Assembly: GCA_903889245.1 (NCBI GenBank)
Contig: CAISWQ010000020.1
Span: 1-64,000 of the forward strand
DNA: 64,000 nucleotides
Reading direction: 5' to 3'
Origin: an uncultured Lentisphaerota bacterium
GTDB taxonomy: Bacteria > Verrucomicrobiota > Kiritimatiellia > CAIQIC01
Shown here: one piece after another, positions 2,407 to 61,703 of the stretch
Layout: every line of letters starts with the position of its first letter
Numbering within the stretch: position 1 is the stretch's first letter
The notes under the pieces: model-generated
Database searches by the model: none
What the model saw: only the letters and a program-made list of their open reading frames with translations
Told to the model about the DNA's origin: nothing
Translations under genes and position numbers: made by a program

Positions 2407-4359
2407 TTATGGGCCTCTCATTTCCCCAAGAATCTGCACGGCTTTCCGATAAAAATCGGTCTCCTTGTGGAAACTAATCATTAACTCTGAGGTCGCCCTC
2501 GTTAGTGTGATGTACACAAGGTTCTGCTCCACTCGTTTCGACCACTTGCCCGCGCCAAATCTATCCATAACGACAATTGCGCAACGGTAGGTGAGCCCTT
2601 GCGAGCTAAAGGATGTCACAAGATTTACCGATGACTTACGGACTTTCTCGTATTGCTCCAAATCAGTCGGATCCGGTCGCGAGACAATGTATTGAGCATA
2701 TTGTCCGAAGGTCTTAAGCAATGTTGACTTCCAATACCGATGACTGAAGGCCACTCCGCTATCCCAAAAGCATTTGAGAATATGCTGGAGTAGTCCCTCC
2801 TTGTCTACGTTCCCTTGCTCGTCTTTCGCAGAATCGGACATAGGGTAAATGACAGCAATCTCATCAGGTGAGAAGCCGTCCTTCACCCATTCTTGGTACT
2901 TCGAGAGAATTTTCAGGGCACACGCAGCAGAATCTGCATTGAAGGCAACCGTCGGCAGTGGGCCATGCCGCACGCTGGCCAAACGGTGTGGTTCCTGCAA
3001 TGTGCGGACATACTTATCGGACATTTGGAGCGCGAACTGGCTAATTTCTGTGGTGTTTCGGTAGTTATTCGTTAAATGAACTTTGCGCTCAGGTCGTAAC
3101 CGTGTTCGATCATAGAAGCGTTCAGTATCATAGATGTTCTGTTCCGGATCCTCTACGAATACGACATTGCCGTTCTCACGGTCGTGAGTGGCGCATACGC
3201 ACATGACGATATGCGGATCGGGAAGGTTATGTCCTTCGTCTATCAGCATAAAATCAAACTGCTGCTCAATGTTCTCCTGATTGTCGGAAATAAATTTTGC
3301 AAATGCCTTTTCGTCCGGGAAATTGCCCTTCCGGGGCAGTGCTCTCCAAGTTTCCTCACCAAAGATGGTTCGGAACAGGTCGTAGTATGTGCCCACTAGA
3401 AATCGTGGGTCATCAAGGTTGATGGATCGGTGTAGAAGATTGTACCGAAACTCATCGATCAACTCTCGCTGGCGGCCGATATAGGCAACCTTTGTATCAG
3501 GGAGGCGCGCGAGTTGGGAAAACATGTGCTGAAGAAGAAGCGTCTTGCCGCTCCCAGCAACGCCTTCGATGATGAGATGGCCAGGTTTCTGAAAAACTTT
3601 GGACAGATACTCTGTTGCGATCTTCTCCTGCTCCTCGTCCATGCGAATAAGGGCGTCTTCGGAGCCAAGAGGAACCACCGTCTCTTGTACCATGCTGCTA
3701 ACTAGCGAGTCTTCATCATCCGGAGCGCCTAGCACGGTGCTCAAGTAATCTAATTCGGCCATATCGAGATAACTCGGAATATTCCGTTTTCTCATATTGC
3801 AGAGCTTGTTGACGGCTCTGTTCGGATTGACCAATAGCGACTCATCTGTAAAGTGCTCCCGGAACAGTGTCGAAGTAATTGGCAACCTAATGTCATCCAG
3901 ATTCACGTGAAGCGTAGCAAGCTTGTCGCGCCATTCCTGCTCAGAAATGAATGGTAAGCAGAGCGCGGTGTGGATCCCAAACTTGAGGAACTTTCGATGC
4001 TCACAGAGTTCGTTTCGTGATTCGCATTTTTCCTTGAGTAGGTATAAGCGATCCTTGAGTGCTTGCCCTGGATTCTTTTCCGTTTTCCCAGAGGTATGGA
4101 TAACGCGGTCAGGCGTGAGTCCCTGGATTTGTTCGACGCGCCAATCCTTGACCTCAAGCAGCAAAACGCCAACAGTTTTGTGGTGGACAACGAAGTCGAT
4201 TTCAGCCTCCTGACTTCGCCCAGTACAACGGTGCGTGTGAATGAGTTCAACATTTGTCCAGATCATGAATTCGTCAGGGAAGTGTTTCTGGAAGAAATCA
4301 AAGATGATGCGTTCGCCGTCACTCCGGCACCGATCACGGGGCATGATCATTTTCGCCAT
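2407..4359 (-). CDS. NERD-domain superfamily I helicase-like protein
   Basis: This is a 650-residue soluble protein with three visible parts. An N-terminal NERD (nuclease-related) domain covers about residues 10-120, with EAEIDFVV at 52-59 and LLEVKDW at 67-73 as the PD-(D/E)XK-like core. A P-loop GVAGSGKT lies at about 266-273, with a Walker B DEGH at about 374-377 and NYRNT near 432. A UvrD/Rep-type C-terminal motif YITLTRATSEL is present. It probably acts on DNA as an ATP-driven nuclease-helicase; such architectures are common in defence or repair islands, and the function here is inferred. I chose the ATG at 4357-4359 because AAGGAGG precedes it by six bases; a longer reading frame starts nine codons earlier without that site. 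It interrupts the nuo operon between nuoK and nuoL and is visibly AT-richer than its neighbours, suggesting acquisition. Confidence 0.85.
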   Translation of the reverse strand: MAKMIMPRDRCRSDGERIIFDFFQKHFPDEFMIWTNVELIHTHRCTGRSQEAEIDFVVHHKTVGVLLLEVKDWRVEQIQGLTPDRVIHTSGKTEKNPGQALKDRLYLLKEKCESRNELCEHRKFLKFGIHTALCLPFISEQEWRDKLATLHVNLDDIRLPITSTLFREHFTDESLLVNPNRAVNKLCNMRKRNIPSYLDMAELDYLSTVLGAPDDEDSLVSSMVQETVVPLGSEDALIRMDEEQEKIATEYLSKVFQKPGHLIIEGVAGSGKTLLLQHMFSQLARLPDTKVAYIGRQRELIDEFRYNLLHRSINLDDPRFLVGTYYDLFRTIFGEETWRALPRKGNFPDEKAFAKFISDNQENIEQQFDFMLIDEGHNLPDPHIVMCVCATHDRENGNVVFVEDPEQNIYDTERFYDRTRLRPERKVHLTNNYRNTTEISQFALQMSDKYVRTLQEPHRLASVRHGPLPTVAFNADSAACALKILSKYQEWVKDGFSPDEIAVIYPMSDSAKDEQGNVDKEGLLQHILKCFWDSGVAFSHRYWKSTLLKTFGQYAQYIVSRPDPTDLEQYEKVRKSSVNLVTSFSSQGLTYRCAIVVMDRFGAGKWSKRVEQNLVYITLTRATSELMISFHKETDFYRKAVQILGEMRGP

Positions 4360-4396
4360 TTGATCCCTCCTTCTGTGTCTAAACAAGATTCACAGA

Positions 4397-4513
4397 ATTT
4401 TTCCAAGGTTTGGAAACGGGAACCGGTGTTTTTTCCAAGCATTGGAAAAGTTAGGCGTGAAATTTTCCAATGCTTGGAAAAAACCGGTGTTTGGTTTTCC
4501 AACCTCTGGAAAA
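4397..4513. repeat. Phased palindrome array, 4 units
   Basis: Four copies of a TTTTCCAnnnnTGGAAAA palindrome start at about 4400, 4431, 4463 and 4495, giving periods of 31, 32 and 32 bp. The 12-13 bp between them are not conserved. A half-site (TTTGGAAAAG) follows near 4527. The array fills the gap between nuoK and the NERD-helicase gene. Confidence 0.9.
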
Positions 4514-7296: not shown

Positions 7297-8918
7297 CCTT
7301 CGCTGCCGATGTCTTCCCATGTCCAGCCCTTCAGGGCCGGGGTTTCATCCGCGAGCGCCGCGAACACTTTTCCAAGGCTTGGAAAGTCGGGGGCCGGTTT
7401 TTTCCAAGCCTTGGAAACCGCCGCCAGCAGGTTGCGCAGAATTTCCCATTCCGGCCGCGCCTGCCCCGGCGCGGCCAGCGCCGGGTTGATTTTTTGCACG
7501 CGGCCCTTCGCGTTGATGAACGTGCCGCCCTTCTCCGCGAACGAGACGCCGGGCAGCACGACGTGTGCGGCATCCGTCGTCGCGCCCGGCAGGATATCCA
7601 GCACGACGAGTAAATCCAGCTTCGCCAGCAGTTCCGCGCGAAGGCCCGCGGCAACCGCGTCTTCGCCCAGCACGAGCAGAGCCTTGATTTCGCCGCGCTC
7701 GATGCCGGCGGCGATTTCCGCAATGCGGCTGCCCGGCGGGTTGGCAGCAACTCCGGCGAGCTGCGCGCCGCGCATGTTCGGATTACGGTCGGCGTTGAGC
7801 AGGAAATTATCGGCGATATCGGTGCGCGGCACGCTGTCGAGCAGGCCGCTTTCCAAGGCTTGGAAAAGTTTGGCGAAGAGGAACAGCTCCTCGGTCGTCG
7901 CGCAGGCGGAGCCGAGGCCGGCGATCTTGCTGCCCGCGGCGCGAACAGCGGCGAGTCGCTCGGCGACGTGCGCGATGGCGTCGGCCCATGTCGCGTCCTG
8001 CCTGCCAAGCTGCGGCGCGGTCAGGCGGTCGGGGTCGTTGATGAACTTGTAGTTGAGGCGGCCGTAGTCGCACATCCAGCACTGGTTGATCGCGGCGTTG
8101 TCGCGCGGGGTCTGGCGGTAGACGACGCCCTCGCGCGACCAGATGGTCGTGTTGCAGCCGGTGGCGCAGTGCGGGCAGATGCTTGCGGTTTCCTTGAGGA
8201 ACCAGACGCGCTGGCGGAAGCGGAAGTCGGTCGAGGTCAGCGCGCCGACCGGACAGAGATCCACGATGTTGAGATCGTAGTTGGTCGCCGGCTCCCGGCC
8301 GGGATAGCTCGCGAGCGTCGAGCGGCTGCCGCGCTTGACGAAGCCGAGGCAGTCCTGCCCCGCGACGTCGCGCATGAAGCGGATGCAACGCGAGCAAAGG
8401 ATGCAGCGCTCGTCATCGAGCGTGATCTTTTCGTTGAGCACGACGCGCTTGGGCTTGTGCTCCTTCTCCTCGACGAAGCGGCTGCAACCCTGGCCATAGT
8501 CCACGGCGAGCTCCTGCAGGCGGCATTCGCCGGCCTGGTCGCAGATCGGGCAATCGAGCGGATGATTGATCAGCAGGAACTCCATCACGCCGCGACGCGC
8601 CTTGATGACGCGCGGGGTGCGGGTCAGCACGACCATGCCCTCGCTGACGGTGGTGTTGCACGCGATGATCAGCTTGGGGCCGAAGTTGACGCGCGGCTGG
8701 CCCTGCGCATCGAGCACCGGCTTGCGGTCGGGGCCGAGCTGCGGCAGACCGACCTCGACGAGGCACATGCGGCAGTTGCCCGCGATGGCGAGTTTCGGGT
8801 GATAGCAGAAGTGCGGAATCTCGATCCCCGCCAACCGCGCGGCCTCGATCAGATTGGTGCCCACCGCCGCCTGCACGGCGCGGCCATCGATCGTCAGGTT
8901 GACATTTTCCACGCTCAT
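7284..8918 (-). CDS. nuoG: NADH-quinone oxidoreductase subunit G
   Basis: The protein has 544 residues. The N-terminal [2Fe-2S] ferredoxin domain has Cys38, Cys49, Cys52 and Cys87. Next comes the His-Cys [4Fe-4S] region with CPICDQAGEC, then the CILCSRCIRFMRD ferredoxin-like clusters. Then CPHCATGC and CWMCDYGR begin the molybdopterin-oxidoreductase-like domain, which has lost cofactor in this family. It is short compared with the long proteobacterial NuoG because the C-terminal part is reduced. I placed the start at the ATG at 8916-8918, overlapping the ORF6N stop by one base; a TTG one codon upstream is less likely. Three copies of the TTTTCCAAGGCTTGGAAAA palindrome lie in frame (7368, 7400, 7849), coding FQALE, SKAWKK and FPSLGK. 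Confidence 0.95.
   Translation of the reverse strand: MSVENVNLTIDGRAVQAAVGTNLIEAARLAGIEIPHFCYHPKLAIAGNCRMCLVEVGLPQLGPDRKPVLDAQGQPRVNFGPKLIIACNTTVSEGMVVLTRTPRVIKARRGVMEFLLINHPLDCPICDQAGECRLQELAVDYGQGCSRFVEEKEHKPKRVVLNEKITLDDERCILCSRCIRFMRDVAGQDCLGFVKRGSRSTLASYPGREPATNYDLNIVDLCPVGALTSTDFRFRQRVWFLKETASICPHCATGCNTTIWSREGVVYRQTPRDNAAINQCWMCDYGRLNYKFINDPDRLTAPQLGRQDATWADAIAHVAERLAAVRAAGSKIAGLGSACATTEELFLFAKLFQALESGLLDSVPRTDIADNFLLNADRNPNMRGAQLAGVAANPPGSRIAEIAAGIERGEIKALLVLGEDAVAAGLRAELLAKLDLLVVLDILPGATTDAAHVVLPGVSFAEKGGTFINAKGRVQKINPALAAPGQARPEWEILRNLLAAVSKAWKKPAPDFPSLGKVFAALADETPALKGWTWEDIGSEGRDL
7368..7417. repeat. Palindrome array inside nuoG, 2 units
   Basis: The units start at 7368 and 7400, a 32-bp period, each 18 bp of TTTTCCAAGSCTTGGAAA. 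They are read in frame within nuoG and encode SKAWKK and FPSLGK around residues 500-518. Confidence 0.9.
7849..7868. repeat. Single palindrome inside nuoG
   Basis: CTTTCCAAGGCTTGGAAAAG is a perfect 20-bp palindrome in frame in nuoG, encoding FQALE. It has no partner at about 31 bp. Confidence 0.85.
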
Positions 8919-9508
8919 CAACGTCGTGCCTTGCTTCGGTTCACGCGATAGGTGCCACGCGACTCCGCTACGCCAAAGCCGATGCGCTTGCGCGGCGTCT
9001 CGGGCGGCTCGACGAGCTGTTTCATTTCGTCGAGCAGATGCAAGATGGCCCGCTCGTGTTCATCCAGACGCTCGGTCAGCTTGCGCTCCAGTTCGGTCAA
9101 TTTCTTCGCCAGCTCCTGATGACCAGCCAACGATTCGCGCATCTGCACGAACGCGCGGACAACGAACAGGCTCATCTGCACCGCCTGCGGACTGTTCAGC
9201 ATCGCCGCCGCCATGATCGCGCCGTGCTCGGTGAAGACGGAAGGTTGATAGCGCGCTCCGCCATGGCTCGGTTTGCCATCAGATCTTGAGGTCGCAAATT
9301 GCGACCTCAAGATTGCAACCTCTTGAAGATCAATCTGAAAAACAAAGTCTTCCGGGAACCTTTCCTGGTTCCGCTTGACGGCTTCGTTCAGGCGCTTGGT
9401 TGTCACGCCGTAGATTTCGGCGAGGTCGGCATCGAGAATGACGCGCCGGCCGCGCAACTGGAAAATACAACGCGCCACGCGATCAAGAGGGACAAGCGCC
9501 GAACTCAT
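8918..9508 (-). CDS. ORF6N-domain DNA-binding protein
   Basis: The 196-residue protein opens with IFQLRGRRVILDADLAEIYG (residues 15-34), the start of the ORF6N/KilA-N-type DNA-binding domain known from phage and plasmid regulators. RYQPSVFTEHGAIMAAAML near 87-105 is the second conserved block. The C-terminal half is charged and probably coiled-coil (KLTELERKLTERLDEHERAI). What it does in this operon is unknown; regulation is only a guess. It sits between nuoEF and nuoG with an ATGA overlap at its start and a one-base overlap at its end, so it is translated as an operon member. Its GC content looks like that of its neighbours, unlike the NERD gene, so any insertion is probably old. A perfect 15-bp-arm palindrome lies inside it (9283-9313). 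Confidence 0.85.
   Translation of the reverse strand: MSSALVPLDRVARCIFQLRGRRVILDADLAEIYGVTTKRLNEAVKRNQERFPEDFVFQIDLQEVAILRSQFATSRSDGKPSHGGARYQPSVFTEHGAIMAAAMLNSPQAVQMSLFVVRAFVQMRESLAGHQELAKKLTELERKLTERLDEHERAILHLLDEMKQLVEPPETPRKRIGFGVAESRGTYRVNRSKARR
9283..9313. repeat. 31-bp palindrome inside the ORF6N gene
   Basis: The arms ATCTTGAGGTCGCAA and TTGCGACCTCAAGAT are perfect over 15 bp around a single central base. On the minus strand it encodes ILRSQFATSR, a segment that is itself conserved in ORF6N proteins. The palindrome may therefore be a by-product of protein conservation or a real binding site. Confidence 0.7.
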
Positions 9509-11301
9509 TTGGCACCCCCGCCGGTGTTGCAGACTTTCTCGAAGTCACCGCGGAAATTTTTCAGGAAGGCCTTGATGGGCCAGGCGGCGGCCTCGCCGAG
9601 GGCGCAGATGGTCTGGCCGTCGATGTTGTCGGCGACGTCCTGCAACAGGTCCACATCCTCCGGACGGCCGCCGCCGGCGTGCATGCGGTGCAAAAGTTTT
9701 TCCATCCACAGCGTGCCTTCGCGGCACGGCGTACACTGGCCGCAGGATTCGTGGGCGTAGAACTGCGCGACGTTCAGCGCGTGGCCGACGATATCCTCGC
9801 CCTCCTCCAGCACGATCACCGCGCCGGAGCCGGCCGAGGAGCCCGCCTGCCGGATGGACTCAAAGTCGATCGGGATATCGAGGTTGCCGCCCGGCAAAAT
9901 CGGCATCGAGCTGCCGCCGGGGATGACGCCCTTGACCGGCCGCTCGTGCAGCGTGCCGCCGCCGATGTCGTGGATGAGCTGCCAGAGCGTGACCTTGCCG
10001 CTCTCGATCTCGTAGACGCCGGGCCGCTTGACCGAGCCGCTCAAGGAAATCAGCCGTGTGCCGGTGGAACGCGGGACGCCGAGCGCGTGGTACCACTTGG
10101 CGCCGTGCTTCACGATCAGCGGGACGTTGCAGAGCGTCTCGATATTGTTGACCACCGTCGGGCAACCGAACAGGCCGCGCACGGCGGGGAACGGCGGCTT
10201 GATGCGCGGGTAGGCGCGCTTGCCCTCGAGCGATTCGATCAGGCCGGTTTCCTCGCCGCAGATATAGGCGCCCGCGCCGCGGTGCAGCCAGATCTCGCAC
10301 TCGAAGTCGGTGCCAAGAATATTCTTGCCGACGAGATTCTGCGCGCGCGCCGCCTCGATCTCGCGCTCCAGCAGCGCCGCGCCGTCGGGAAATTCGCCGC
10401 GCAAATAGACATAGGCCACCTTCGCGCCGATCGCGTGGCACGTGATCAGGATGCCCTCGATGAGCAGGTGCGGATCGCGGTAGATGAGTTGCCGGTCCTT
10501 GAACGTGCCCGGCTCGCTCTCATCGCCGTTGCACACGAGATAGACCGGCTTGCCGGATTTGCGGTCGAGGAAGCGCCACTTCATGCCGCACGGGAAGCCC
10601 GCGCCGCCGCGCCCGCGCAGTTCGCTATCGGCGACCTCGGCGGTGATCACCTCGGGCTTGAGCGCGAGCGCCTTTTTCAGTGACTCGTAGCCGCCGGCCG
10701 CGCTGTAGTCGGCGAGCGAGCCGGTGTAACCGGGCTGGCTCATGTTCGCCATCAGCAGCCGCCGCTCGAGCGCGTGCGCGGGCCGCAGCGGCGCCAGCGC
10801 CTGCGACGGAATCGCGCCCGTCGCACGGATCTCATCCACGAGCGCGCACGCCTTTTCCGGCGTCATGTGCTCGAACAGCAGGTCGTTGATCATCATGGCC
10901 GGGCCGGAGCCGCACGCCGCGAGACACTCGACCGCCGCGAGCGTGAAGAGCCCGTCCGTCGTGACGGCCTCGAGCGGCGCGCCGAGCTTCTTTTCCAAGG
11001 CTTGGACAAGCGCGCCGCAGCCGCACTGCGCGCACGAGAGCGTACGGCAGACCGTGATATGGAACCGGCCGCGCGGCGCCTCGGAAAACATCGGATAGAA
11101 GCGGATCAGTTCCCAGACGTTGATCGGCTGCAAGCCGAGCTTCGCGGCGACCCACTCGACCTGCTCGTTGCCGAGGCAACCGCAATGCGCCTGCAGCAGA
11201 TGGAGCAACCACAGCACCGCCGCCCGCTTATGTTCGGGCGGGTAGTGCGCGATCAGCGCGTCCATCCGCTTTTCCAACTGCTCTGGAACCTGCAAACTCA
11301 T
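9505..11301 (-). CDS. nuoEF: Fused NADH-quinone oxidoreductase subunits E and F
   Basis: This is a single 598-residue frame. Residues 1-170 are NuoE: the [2Fe-2S] ligands Cys85, Cys90, Cys126 and Cys130 have the usual Cx4C...Cx3C spacing. From about residue 185 it is NuoF: the FMN/NADH site GRGGAGFPCGMKW at 230-242, CNGDESEPGTFKDR at about 257-270, and the N3 cluster ESCGQCTPCREGT with Cys520, Cys523, Cys526 and Cys566. There is no stop or obvious second start between them, so NADH oxidation and the N1a cluster reside in one chain. I chose the ATG at 11299-11301; the frame upstream is only translated palindrome repeat. A palindrome is also in frame in the NuoE part (QALEKK, residues 100-105). 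The stop overlaps the ORF6N start (ATGA). Confidence 0.95.
   Translation of the reverse strand: MSLQVPEQLEKRMDALIAHYPPEHKRAAVLWLLHLLQAHCGCLGNEQVEWVAAKLGLQPINVWELIRFYPMFSEAPRGRFHITVCRTLSCAQCGCGALVQALEKKLGAPLEAVTTDGLFTLAAVECLAACGSGPAMMINDLLFEHMTPEKACALVDEIRATGAIPSQALAPLRPAHALERRLLMANMSQPGYTGSLADYSAAGGYESLKKALALKPEVITAEVADSELRGRGGAGFPCGMKWRFLDRKSGKPVYLVCNGDESEPGTFKDRQLIYRDPHLLIEGILITCHAIGAKVAYVYLRGEFPDGAALLEREIEAARAQNLVGKNILGTDFECEIWLHRGAGAYICGEETGLIESLEGKRAYPRIKPPFPAVRGLFGCPTVVNNIETLCNVPLIVKHGAKWYHALGVPRSTGTRLISLSGSVKRPGVYEIESGKVTLWQLIHDIGGGTLHERPVKGVIPGGSSMPILPGGNLDIPIDFESIRQAGSSAGSGAVIVLEEGEDIVGHALNVAQFYAHESCGQCTPCREGTLWMEKLLHRMHAGGGRPEDVDLLQDVADNIDGQTICALGEAAAWPIKAFLKNFRGDFEKVCNTGGGAK
10991..11009. 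repeat. Single palindrome inside nuoE
   Basis: TTTTCCAAGGCTTGGACAA is a 19-bp copy of the palindrome with one decayed arm. It is in frame and encodes QALEKK on the minus strand. Confidence 0.8.
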
Positions 11302-11313
11302 TTCAAAATTTTC

Positions 11314-11426
11314 GTTTCCCAGGGATTGGATCCTCCCGCGGAGGATTTCCAAACCTTGGAAACTTTCACCATCAACTTTTCCAAGCCTTGGAAAATTCCG
11401 CCTTTCTTTTTCCAAGGCTTGGAACT
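11314..11426. repeat. Phased palindrome array, 4 units
   Basis: Units start at about 11314 (degenerate), 11345, 11377 and 11408, giving periods of 31, 32 and 31 bp. The array fills the nuoD-nuoEF junction (11302-11429) completely. Spacers are unrelated to each other. Confidence 0.9.
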
Positions 11427-16598: not shown

Positions 16599-16680
16599 TT
16601 TTCCAGGGATTGGAAAAGGGAGGGGGTCTTTTTTCCAAGGCTTGGAAAAATGGCGCAGCCAGCTTCCAATCCTTGGAAAA
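16599..16680. repeat. Phased palindrome array, 3 units
   Basis: Units start at 16599, 16631 and about 16662, with periods of 32 and 31 bp. The array lies exactly between two convergent genes (ends 16595 and 16682) and has T- and A-tracts at its hairpin feet. It could act as a bidirectional terminator here. Confidence 0.9.
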
Positions 16681-19954: not shown

Positions 19955-20035
19955 TTTTCCAAGGCTTGGAAAAAGTTGCGGTGAAATTTCCAAGGCCTGG
20001 AAAAAATACGCGCAGCGTTTTCCGAAGTTTGGAAG
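19955..20035. repeat. Phased palindrome array, 3 units
   Basis: Units start at 19955, 19986 and 20018 (31 and 32 bp apart). They occupy the 100-base gap between the ATPase gene and the permease gene. Confidence 0.9.
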
Positions 20036-20042
20036 ATCCGAT

Positions 20043-25935: not shown

Positions 25936-26780
25936 TCCTCTGTGGCGGCAAGGGCACGCGCTTGAGCGCGCTCTATGCCGACCGCCCCAAGATTCTCGTG
26001 CCGATCGCCGGCCGGCCGTTCCTGCTGTGGCAGCTCGAATGGCTCGCGCGCGGCGGCGTCACGGATGTCCACCTCGCCGCCGGTCATCTTTCTGACGTGC
26101 TCGGCGCGTGGCTGGCGGAACAAGAAAGAGGACAGAGGACAGAAGTCAGGGGGCAGAAGTCAGGGGGCAGAAGTCAGGGGGCAGAAGTTTCAGGTTTCAG
26201 ATTTCAAGTTTCAGGTTTCAAGTTGCGAGGCACCCTCTCCACCGAGCCGGCGCCGCTGGGCACGGGCGGCGGGCTCAAGTTCGTCGAGCCGCACCTCGTC
26301 TCCGATCCCTTCCTCGTGTTGAACGGCGATAGCCTGATGCCGCGGCTCGCTTTCCAAGCCTTGGAAAAACAGCACGCCGCTTTTTCCAAGGCTTGGAAAA
26401 GCGCCGGCGCCGCCACGCTCGCCGTCACGCGCATCGCCGAGGCCGGCCGCTATGGCACGGTCGAGTTCGATGCCGTGCGCCGCATCACCGCGTTCCGCGA
26501 GAAGGCCAGCCGCAGCGAGGGCTTCATCAACGGCGGCGTTTATCTGATGGACCGCGCGCTCCTCGCCGCGCTCGAACCGGGGAAAAATATTTCCATCGAG
26601 ACCGACACCTTCCCGGCGCTCGCCGCCGCCGGCCGCCTGCAGGCCGTGGAGTTTCCGCAGCCGCTGCTCGATATGGGCACGCCGGAAGGCATCCGCGCGA
26701 TGGAAAGCTTCCTAGCGGCGGAATCAACCCAGCCCGCCGCCGTGCGCGTGGATGAGCAGCGCCACGGCGATACCCAGTAA
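25923..26780 (+). CDS. Sugar-1-phosphate nucleotidyltransferase (HddC/RmlA-like)
   Basis: The 285-residue protein opens VQAVILCGGKGTRL, the nucleotide-binding loop, and has PKILVPIAGRPFL. Further landmarks are LGTGGGLKF, LVLNGDSL and FINGGVYLMD. It should activate a sugar phosphate, perhaps heptose or hexose, for the neighbouring glycosyltransferases. The GTG start at 25923 has AAGGAG five bases upstream. Two repeat insertions lie in frame: a word repeat (26122-26232) encoding about 35 residues of RGQKSGGRSQGAEV / SGFRFQVSGF type, and a two-unit palindrome array (26350-26400) encoding FQALEK and FSKAWK. Whether the enzyme is still active is unclear, since both lie in probable surface loops. 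The last 57 bases overlap the convergent DUF212 gene. Confidence 0.85.
   Translation: MQAVILCGGKGTRLSALYADRPKILVPIAGRPFLLWQLEWLARGGVTDVHLAAGHLSDVLGAWLAEQERGQRTEVRGQKSGGRSQGAEVSGFRFQVSGFKLRGTLSTEPAPLGTGGGLKFVEPHLVSDPFLVLNGDSLMPRLAFQALEKQHAAFSKAWKSAGAATLAVTRIAEAGRYGTVEFDAVRRITAFREKASRSEGFINGGVYLMDRALLAALEPGKNISIETDTFPALAAAGRLQAVEFPQPLLDMGTPEGIRAMESFLAAESTQPAAVRVDEQRHGDTQ
26122..26232. repeat. Word repeat inside the nucleotidyltransferase gene
   Basis: Four near-identical units of the 14-bp word TCAGGGGGCAGAAG run into TTTCAGGTTTCAGATTTCAAG-type words. The unit length is not a multiple of three, yet the whole insert keeps the frame open and restores it before STEPAPLGTGGG. Confidence 0.85.
26350..26400. 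repeat. Palindrome array inside the nucleotidyltransferase gene, 2 units
   Basis: Units start at 26350 and 26382, a 32-bp period. They are in frame and give FQALEK and FSKAWK. Confidence 0.9.
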
Positions 26781-28697: not shown

Positions 28698-28841
28698 TTT
28701 TCCAAGGATGGGAAAGGGGAGCCAGTGTTTTTTCCAAACCATGGAAAATCTCGCTGAAAATTTTCCGAGCCCCGGAAAAATTCGCGTGGCTTTTCCCAGG
28801 GTTTGGAACATCAGGCGGATTTTTTTCCAAGCCTTGGAACA
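28698..28841. repeat. Phased palindrome array, 5 units
   Basis: This is the longest array in the window. Units start at 28698, 28730, 28761, 28791 and 28823 (periods 32, 31, 30 and 32 bp). Centres and arms vary (for example TTTTCCGAGCCCCGGAAAA, with matching arm changes). The last unit overlaps the 3' end of the AraC-family gene and encodes its C-terminal VPRLGKK. Confidence 0.92.
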
Positions 28842-35216: not shown

Positions 35217-35297
35217 GTTTCCTGGCATTGGAAACGGAAACCGGGAATTTTCCAGGGCTTGGAAAATCGCACAGAAAATTTTCCAAGCCTTGGAAAA
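35217..35297. repeat. Phased palindrome array, 3 units
   Basis: Units start at about 35217, 35248 and 35279, with a period of exactly 31 bp twice. It begins four bases after the GH106-like stop codon. Confidence 0.92.
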
Positions 35298-35299
35298 TT

Positions 35300-35433
35300 T
35301 ATGACACAGAAAGCCTTTGACCGACCCTGAACCCCGTGCTTGAATAGCCGCGCATCAGGAGTGAGCCTGCGGTTGCGGGCTCTGCCAACCGGGGACGGGA
35401 TCCCACGGTGGCTGCCTGAAGGTCGGAACCTTC
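35300..35433 (-). pseudogene. Possible decayed C-terminus of an FGE/SUMF1-like domain
   Basis: On the minus strand, one frame reads GRARNRRLTPDARLFKHG and the adjacent frame continues GFRVGQRLSVS followed by a stop. Deleting one G from the GGGG run at the switch joins them as TPDARLFKHGFRVGQ. That is the type of ending (RxxRxxPDxRxxxxGFR) seen in formylglycine-generating-enzyme/sulfatase-modifying-factor proteins. Upstream of this the similarity fades. It overlaps the structured-RNA candidate, so the two readings compete. Inference from a short motif only. Confidence 0.3.
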
Positions 35434-35513
35434 TGGCGATGTGTCCCGCGCGTGGCGGGAAAACAAAAATCCCGTGGCGGACAGGCCAGCCTGATGCAGG
35501 TTGGCCTGTTTTA
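35341..35513 (+). ncRNA. Candidate structured leader RNA ending in a terminator
   Basis: Several helices nest without conflict. The closing helix is TCAGG (35355-35359) with CCTGA (35415-35419). Inside it are hairpin GAGCCTGC-ggtt-GCGGGCTC (35363-35382) and hairpin GCCAaCCGGGG...CCCaCGGTGGC (35384-35412). Next come GAAGGT-cgga-ACCTTC (35418-35433), TCCCGC-gcgtg-GCGGGA (35444-35460) and the terminator. No match to cobalamin, TPP, SAM or other well-known riboswitch consensus was recognised. It may be a free small RNA or an attenuating leader of the three small genes downstream. Confidence 0.45.
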
Positions 35514-38953: not shown

Positions 38954-39002
38954 TTTTCCAAGGCTTGGACGGCCGGGCGGTCCTTTTTCCAAGCCTTGGA
39001 AC
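38954..39002. repeat. Phased palindrome array, 2 units
   Basis: Units start at 38954 and 38985 (31 bp apart). They lie upstream of the aldo/keto reductase gene and inside its 5' open frame. Confidence 0.9.
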
Positions 39003-39024
39003 ACACGGTCGGTTCCGCCCGCGC

Positions 39025-51795: not shown

Positions 51796-51845
51796 TTTTC
51801 CAAGGCTTGGAAAATTTTCCAATCTTTTTTCCAAGCCTTGGAAGA
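51796..51845. repeat. Phased palindrome array, 2 units plus a half-site
   Basis: Full units start at 51796 and 51827 (31 bp apart), with a half-site TTTTCCAA at 51815. It lies upstream of the GH29 gene. Confidence 0.9.
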
Positions 51846-52287: not shown

Positions 52288-53592
52288 ATGCCGACACACT
52301 CGCTTGATTTCGACTATGGAGACAAGACCATTCAAGAGTTCGTCCTACTTTTTAAAAATGGACAATTAAATCTGGAGCCTGGCTTCCAGCGCTCTTCTGT
52401 CTGGACATTATCCGACAGAAAAAAACTGATTGAATCACTGTTGCAAAATTACCCGATACCGTCAGTCTTTCTCTACAAGCAGAACGATGACGGGAAATTA
52501 CGGTACGATGTGATTGACGGAAAACAGCGATTGGAAACCGTTTTAATGTTCCAAGGCGCAGGACATTTTCGCGGGTCGCGGTTTGATGTAAAGGCACGGC
52601 TTGGACCAGACGAAGGCGTCGAAGAATGGGATTGGTCGAGACTGCAAAATCGTGGTCATGAATACCGCTTGGCGGGGTACAAATTTCAGACGGTTGAAAT
52701 AACTGGAGATCTTTCGGACATCATAGACTTGTTTGTTCGGATTAATTCTACAGGCAAACGACTAACTGGTGCAGAAAAACGCCATGCAAGATTTTTCCGT
52801 AGCGACTTCCTTAAGCAAGCTGGACGCCTTGCTGAAAACAGGCAACGGTTTTTCCTCGAAAACCGGATTCTTTCGCCCGGCCAAGTCAGCCGAATGAAGC
52901 ACGTGGAACTTGTCTGTGAGTTGATGGCCTCATTACAGTCCCGAGGTCTGATAAATAAAAAGAAAGCACTCGACGGGATTATTGGTGGACAGGCCATAGA
53001 TTTGCGAACACTCCGTCGAGCGACTCAAGAAACCGTCAGAATTCTGAATCTCGTCAGGAAGGTATTCCCTGAAATACGCTCCACACGTTTTGCGAACTCT
53101 GCTGATTTTTATTCATTGTTTGTTTTCTTGTGGGAGCTAGACCAAGAAGGTTGCATTCTTTCGGATATCAAACGGAACCGGCAAGCACAGCGGCTTCTGG
53201 TCTGGCTGTCCAATGGTGTCAGCGAGGTACGTCAGCAGCAACGAAAGGCAGAAGGCGCAAATCCCGATCAGCGACTGTTTGCTGACTATTTACTCACTAT
53301 TCAAGGAGACACAGACAGTTTAGCGACCAGACAGCGCCGAGCTGAAATACTGAAACGAGTCTTCGGCGGGTTATTTGAAAAAAAGGATGAGCAACGCGGT
53401 TTCACAATCGAACAAAGAAGACTTCTGTGGCATTCAGAAGAACGGAAACGGTGTCCAGAATGTCGGCGTCCCTTAACGTGGATGAATTTTACGATTGATC
53501 ACATCAAGCCTCATGCTCTTGGTGGAAAATCGACTCTTTCAAATGCGGCTTTGATGTGTCGTTCCTGTAACTCAAGAAAAGGGAAACGATAG
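52288..53592 (+). CDS. DUF262-HNH endonuclease-like protein
   Basis: The 434-residue protein has an N-terminal DUF262 (ParB/GmrSD-like) domain, with EPGFQRSSVWTLSDRKKLIE (about 30-49), PIPSVFLYKQ and the signature DVIDGKQRLETVLMF (about 73-87), then LFVRINSTGKRLTGAE. The C-terminal HNH nuclease has CPECRRPL (Zn Cys pair), FTIDHIKPHALGGKSTLSNA and MCRSCNSRKGKR (second Cys pair and catalytic His/Asn). Such proteins are related to type IV, modification-dependent restriction enzymes. By analogy it may restrict foreign DNA; the target is unknown. It stands alone, is visibly AT-richer than its neighbours and is flanked by word repeats, which suggests acquisition. ATG with GAGG upstream. Confidence 0.88.
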   Translation: MPTHSLDFDYGDKTIQEFVLLFKNGQLNLEPGFQRSSVWTLSDRKKLIESLLQNYPIPSVFLYKQNDDGKLRYDVIDGKQRLETVLMFQGAGHFRGSRFDVKARLGPDEGVEEWDWSRLQNRGHEYRLAGYKFQTVEITGDLSDIIDLFVRINSTGKRLTGAEKRHARFFRSDFLKQAGRLAENRQRFFLENRILSPGQVSRMKHVELVCELMASLQSRGLINKKKALDGIIGGQAIDLRTLRRATQETVRILNLVRKVFPEIRSTRFANSADFYSLFVFLWELDQEGCILSDIKRNRQAQRLLVWLSNGVSEVRQQQRKAEGANPDQRLFADYLLTIQGDTDSLATRQRRAEILKRVFGGLFEKKDEQRGFTIEQRRLLWHSEERKRCPECRRPLTWMNFTIDHIKPHALGGKSTLSNAALMCRSCNSRKGKR

Positions 53593-56991: not shown

Positions 56992-57082
56992 TTTTCCCAT
57001 ACTTGGAAAACGCCCGCCTGTCCATCGCGATATTTTTCCAAGGCTTGGAAAATGCCGCGTGAAAATTTCCAAGCCTTGGAAA
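56992..57082. repeat. Phased palindrome array, 3 units, one 42-bp step
   Basis: Units start at 56992, 57034 and 57065, so steps are 42 and 31 bp. Both are near multiples of 10.5 bp (four and three helical turns). Confidence 0.9.
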
Positions 57083-57107
57083 GGGCACCCGCAGCCGGAG
57101 GCAGAGG

Positions 57108-61591: not shown

Positions 61592-61654
61592 ACCCACCAA
61601 CCACGTGCTTAGAGTAAAACATCAGGCCCCGTCCCGCCACAGAAATTTATGGGT

Positions 61655-61703
61655 GTTCCAAGGCTTGGAAAATTTCGACGCGGTTTTTCCAAGGTTTGGA
61701 AAA
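61655..61703. repeat. Phased palindrome array, 2 units
   Basis: Units start at about 61655 and 61685 (30 bp apart). They lie between divergent genes, with the aceE ribosome site GGAAGGAG following at 61735. Confidence 0.88.

Follow-up and report, generated by a model that had tools for sequence, protein, structure and literature searches.

The window analysed here, the first 64,000 nucleotides of contig CAISWQ010000020.1 from an uncultured Lentisphaerota bacterium (assembly GCA_903889245.1), carries many copies of a 19-bp palindrome, TTTTCCA-N5-TGGAAAA, which almost always has G or C at its middle position and lies in short arrays and, besides these, in lone copies within genes (all given below without strand). 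Five copies at steps of 32, 31, 31 and 31 bp (28698..28841) occupy the gap between an AraC-type regulator gene and a glutamyl-tRNA synthetase-type gene, the final copy overlapping the end of the AraC ORF. Four-copy arrays are found between the end of the nuoK-side gene and a NERD/helicase gene (4399..4513; steps of 32, 32 and 32 bp) and in the nuoD-nuoE gap (11315..11426). Arrays of three begin 4 bp past a stop codon with convergent genes on either side (16599..16680), separate an ABC ATPase gene from one for an FtsX-like permease (19955..20036), begin 4 bp past the GH106 stop codon (35217..35297), and combine steps of 42 and 31 bp, or four and three helical turns, at 56992..57083. Pairs of copies lie close to the 3′ end of the nuoG ORF (7368..7418), within an ORF with a nucleotidyltransferase domain (26350..26400; copies at 26350 and 26382), in a gap between co-directional genes (38954..39003), at the start of a fucosidase ORF in a divergent gap (51796..51845), and at 61654..61703, while the lone copies lie within the nuoG ORF (7849..7867) and the nuoE coding sequence (10991..11009). 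Several neighbouring features are of separate note. The NERD/helicase-like gene (2407-4386) sits between nuoL-type and nuoK-side genes as if inserted into the operon, with the palindrome array flanking it upstream, and an ORF6N-domain gene of an often phage-linked kind (8918-9508) lies within the nuo operon, with nuoG on one side and nuoEF on the other. A SAM-I/IV riboswitch (35347-35476) directly follows the GH106-side array, and a GmrSD-type restriction gene with an HNH domain spans 52288-53592.

An earlier, sequence-only reading had counted 37 palindrome copies in 14 places; a recount at its positions, weak copies included, was exact, and its array coordinates were all correct to within 1 bp. 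Exact matches to TTTTCCA-N(2-6)-TGGAAAA number 14 in the window and 0 in 100 dinucleotide shuffles. The genome-wide count that it had proposed gave 718-720 exact palindromes in the source genome (G000, 5.26 Mb) and 0 for a control pattern, and, with up to 2 mismatches allowed, 2,317 palindromes versus 12 for the reversed-control pattern; in sampled sequence, the motif had 382, 174 and 88 sites versus 0-4 with reversed or scrambled arms. Rfam families were tried as an identity for the arrays and rejected. The literature searched had the full motif string in no paper and yielded no relevant paper for the motif core, for Kiritimatiella, or for Kiritimatiellia together with nucleoid proteins. The phased palindrome arrays are real and strong and, in the literature searched, apparently undescribed.

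The spacing of the copies follows the DNA helix. Steps of mostly 30-32 bp, and once 42 bp, had been described for the window, and 385 kb of the source genome bear this out, with peaks at 31 bp (n=61) and 32 bp (n=35) and one step each of 33 and 42 bp. A scan of about 24 assemblies for array loci, which accepted any step of 21-43 bp, returned 101 adjacent steps of 21-23 bp, 216 of 29-32 bp and 7 of 41-43 bp, and none of 24-28 or 33-40 bp though these were permitted. Preferred steps overall are 21-22, 30-32, 41-43 and 52-53 bp, and other values are almost absent between these peaks, which fall at whole turns. The predicted 10.5-bp periodicity is thus present, and for steps <60 bp the Rayleigh R at this period is 0.86-0.96. 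Past about 60 bp the phasing is that of one complete, single-contig genome of 3.88 Mb (G083), sampled at 60 places, where steps cluster at 22, 31-32, 42, 52-53, 63, 73, 83, 95, 105, 116, 126, 146, 178 and 220 bp and R at 10.5 bp is 0.89 for steps <60 bp and 0.78 for those of 115-250 bp, for which the best-fitting period is 10.3. Degenerate copies beside strong ones in this genome peak at every turn up to 126 bp, and the DNA that separates them is unrelated; palindrome pairs within single ORFs are phased as well (R 0.85, n=43). Phasing at two, three, four, five and more turns was seen in unrelated families.

What lies between the palindromes is not conserved, as had been noted for the window. 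Spacers in G000 are 30% identical within the same array and equally 30% between different places, and since spacers sharing an array are no more alike than those from elsewhere, the arrays are not tandem duplications; the duplicated 31-bp unit that would have accounted for them was not seen. True local duplications do exist in some other genomes, for example with identical spacers ATCGTAAAAAAG, and a unit duplicated in tandem whose spacers have since decayed might be imagined for G000 too, but steps of 22, 42, 53, 73, 116 and 220 bp are also found with unrelated DNA between them, and we consider such an origin barely credible.

Serial hairpins in RNA, the other possibility raised at the outset, fare poorly. 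Terminators or stabilisers of mRNA 3′ ends would suit the bias of arrays to positions just past stop codons and the convergent gaps, which are occupied most often, and RNA of the five-copy array forms more stable folds than shuffled sequence does (z -3.7), mainly because the copies pair with each other. In two genomes (G004 and G005) the second palindrome upstream of the synthetase gene (L140, L141) lies inside a longer GC-rich stem beside a T-run, which may reflect the capture of a copy by a terminator. Yet the flanks of the palindrome are not complementary, leaving the stem to end at 19 bp, and no compensatory changes were found between the arms, a deviation in one being unmatched in the other; the hairpin is therefore not what is conserved. 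Palindromes also occur in divergent gaps and within genes, the 3′ side is AAAA and not a U-tract, and the stem followed by a U-tract at gene 3′ ends only that marks intrinsic terminators was not found. Nor does RNA predict a 10.5-bp phase, and we hold a role as RNA hairpins to be improbable.

Placement relative to genes was assessed with approximate calls from a home-made gene finder. By these, the arrays of G000 are strongly intergenic, with gap types near expectation by length, while in G083 single copies are mostly within genes; in co-directional gaps arrays lie nearer stop codons, with start codons avoided in G003 and G083. No origin or terminus bias was found along the G083 chromosome, the sites being spread round it. 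The copy in nuoE falls in a peptide conserved across all four species, with length unchanged (LVQALEKK; IFQALEKK or IFKALEKK in gapless orthologs), and 13 of the 16 testable in-gene sites of G083 likewise align gaplessly with an ortholog. In this small sample of 16 sites identity at the site is 0.46 versus 0.58 elsewhere and the gap rate 0.19 versus 0.07, the lower identity suggesting that the motif was kept at the expense of the protein sequence. These alignments indicate that in-gene sites arose mostly by substitution. Arrays persist at orthologous places while their copy number changes: the nuoD-nuoE gap holds four copies in G000 and two each in G003 and G005, and the region upstream of the glutamyl-tRNA synthetase-type gene holds five in G000 and two each in G004 and G005. 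Among loci that had been selected for arrays, small sets of neighbours recur, namely an aminotransferase, a YidD-domain protein and the phosphoglycerate mutase gene gpmI, which an array directly follows in four genomes (L062, L071, L132, L185). A binder regulating its own gene was sought through clustering of array-adjacent genes and rejected, the largest cluster being an artefact of ORFs that overlap arrays.

Miniature mobile elements resembling REPs, spread by RAYT or another transposase, are a further alternative. Like the present sites, REP/BIME elements are high-copy palindromes, mostly extragenic and often 3′ of genes, and REPs within genes are also known (PMC3733652). The many copies, mostly extragenic in G000, the lineage-specific centres, the gene 3′-end bias and a weak positive correlation between the numbers of Y1_Tnp genes and of sites (rho 0.31) all fit this account. 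Set against it, the source genome, with 718 exact sites, has 2 weak Y1_Tnp matches, and G151, with 63 sites, has 0, whereas G017, with 0 sites, has 21; a RAYT, whose co-occurrence with the repeats had been suggested as a check, is thus not required. In-gene sites mostly arose gaplessly, the arms are common to a whole class, steps track helical turns with random DNA between, and arm variation is uncompensated. None of the marks of a REP/RAYT system was found, be it a consistently accompanying Y1_Tnp transposase, a hairpin kept by compensation, or the GTAG/CGTC tag, which is absent from the column tables at positions adjoining the palindrome. The original judgement that the arrays are unlike ordinary REP elements stands, and a mobile-element origin appears quite unlikely.

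The palindrome is widespread within a single class. The three other genomes of the same genus have 104-445 exact sites and a sister genus 1-3; across the phylum, of which 388 genomes were surveyed, only one class has high counts, and outside it 4-7 copies occur in two genomes of a single family. The named records in which three-copy arrays occur bear the labels Kiritimatiellae, Lentisphaerae, Verrucomicrobia or Opitutia MAG, and from these we infer that the class is Kiritimatiellia. The arms TTTTCCA...TGGAAAA are constant and recur in many of its families, while the centre varies by lineage (AAGGCTT, AATGATT, ACGCCGT and others). A two-copy array also occurs at 3427-3476 of an 18.9-kb IMG/VR contig (L042), which could derive from a host genome or from a provirus of Kiritimatiellia.

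An odd-length palindrome of this kind looks operator-like, and the operators of an ordinary pathway regulator of LacI, TetR or CRP type therefore come to mind. ArgR and NrdR operators are palindromes in pairs, spaced by about two turns for ArgR and three for NrdR; they have few sites, however, and serve one pathway each, whereas here more than 2,000 sites adjoin unrelated genes, divergent gaps are not enriched, and arrays tend away from start codons. Particular binders were rejected on their distribution: LacI is missing from G003 and G034, TetR from G163, G339, G151, G351 and G257, and the CRP-type HTH from G257. We rate a pathway regulator as slightly less probable even than hairpins or mobile elements.

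We favour instead, with a probability of roughly 75%, operator arrays of a dimeric, oligomerising DNA-binding protein that would act genome-wide as a global regulator or nucleoid protein. At the level of DNA, whole-turn phasing in unrelated families, with random intervening bases, supports the initial suggestion of sites for dimeric proteins along a single helix face. Each 19-bp palindrome would bind one protein dimer; since sites are kept at whole turns (two, three, four, five and more), neighbouring dimers would share a helix face and could oligomerise, the protein extending along, wrapping or bridging the DNA, with cooperation from two turns to perhaps 20. Genomes carry from hundreds to about 2,300 of these sites, which lie both between and within genes, and this number and spread suggest a binder with an architectural or global regulatory function rather than one tied to a single pathway. 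Sitting less easily with such protein arrays is that they somewhat favour gene 3′ ends, a preference that does not necessarily follow from a purely structural role. More tentatively, and at clearly less than even odds, the arrays may amount to a sequence-specific chromatin found only in Kiritimatiellia, a phased lattice of thousands of near-identical putative dimer sites for an undescribed architectural protein, accepted in genes despite amino acid changes.

The closest parallels for a dimeric, oligomerising binder are the Lrp/AsnC (feast/famine) regulators, whose targets are odd-length semi-palindromes clustered two or three helical turns apart centre-to-centre and always seem to be clusters (PMC2995911; see also PMC10201364), and whose dimers act cooperatively and wrap DNA (PMC2995911, PMC10201364). 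Known Lrp sites, though, are degenerate, whereas the arms here are near-invariant, a genome can carry hundreds of sites, up to about 2,300, and the phasing extends over many turns. The leading candidate binder, if a doubtful one, is an Lrp/AsnC protein that is conserved within the class in single copy (in the source genome on contig C71) and resembles the PH1519 and LrpA structures. The two- and three-turn site spacing expected of Lrp/AsnC arrays is present, as is an Lrp/AsnC protein in every array genome tested, and in statistics that ignore phylogeny a single full-length Lrp/AsnC occurs in 34 of 34 site-rich genomes while 13 of 13 genomes lacking Lrp/AsnC are site-poor. Many site-poor genomes also carry one, however, and the DNA-binding helix fails to separate site-rich from site-poor genomes cleanly, being about the same within genus g14 in G088 (1 site) and G249 (122 sites); the recognition helix differs between the g1 and g2 proteins. 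That helix is, moreover, rather acidic, the HTH Pfam score is weak for G083, and the lrp gene is seldom flanked by sites. Autoregulation of lrp through the palindromes is not general and was rejected, a site lying near the lrp start in just four of six f5 genomes.

Helically phased high-affinity sites also nucleate bacterial chromatin formed by H-NS (PMC5418058), but H-NS recognises AT-rich motifs and the sites here are a defined 19-bp palindrome repeated at whole turns genome-wide. The arrays may function in the manner of Lrp site clusters or of the sites where H-NS nucleates. Nucleoid proteins in bacteria are for the most part loose in their sequence requirements, which makes the positioning of chromatin hard to read from DNA. 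In Kiritimatiellia, by contrast, the DNA itself shows the position and helical phase of apparent architectural sites throughout an entire, little-studied class, so that protein binding, DNA wrapping and any influence on nearby genes can be tested.
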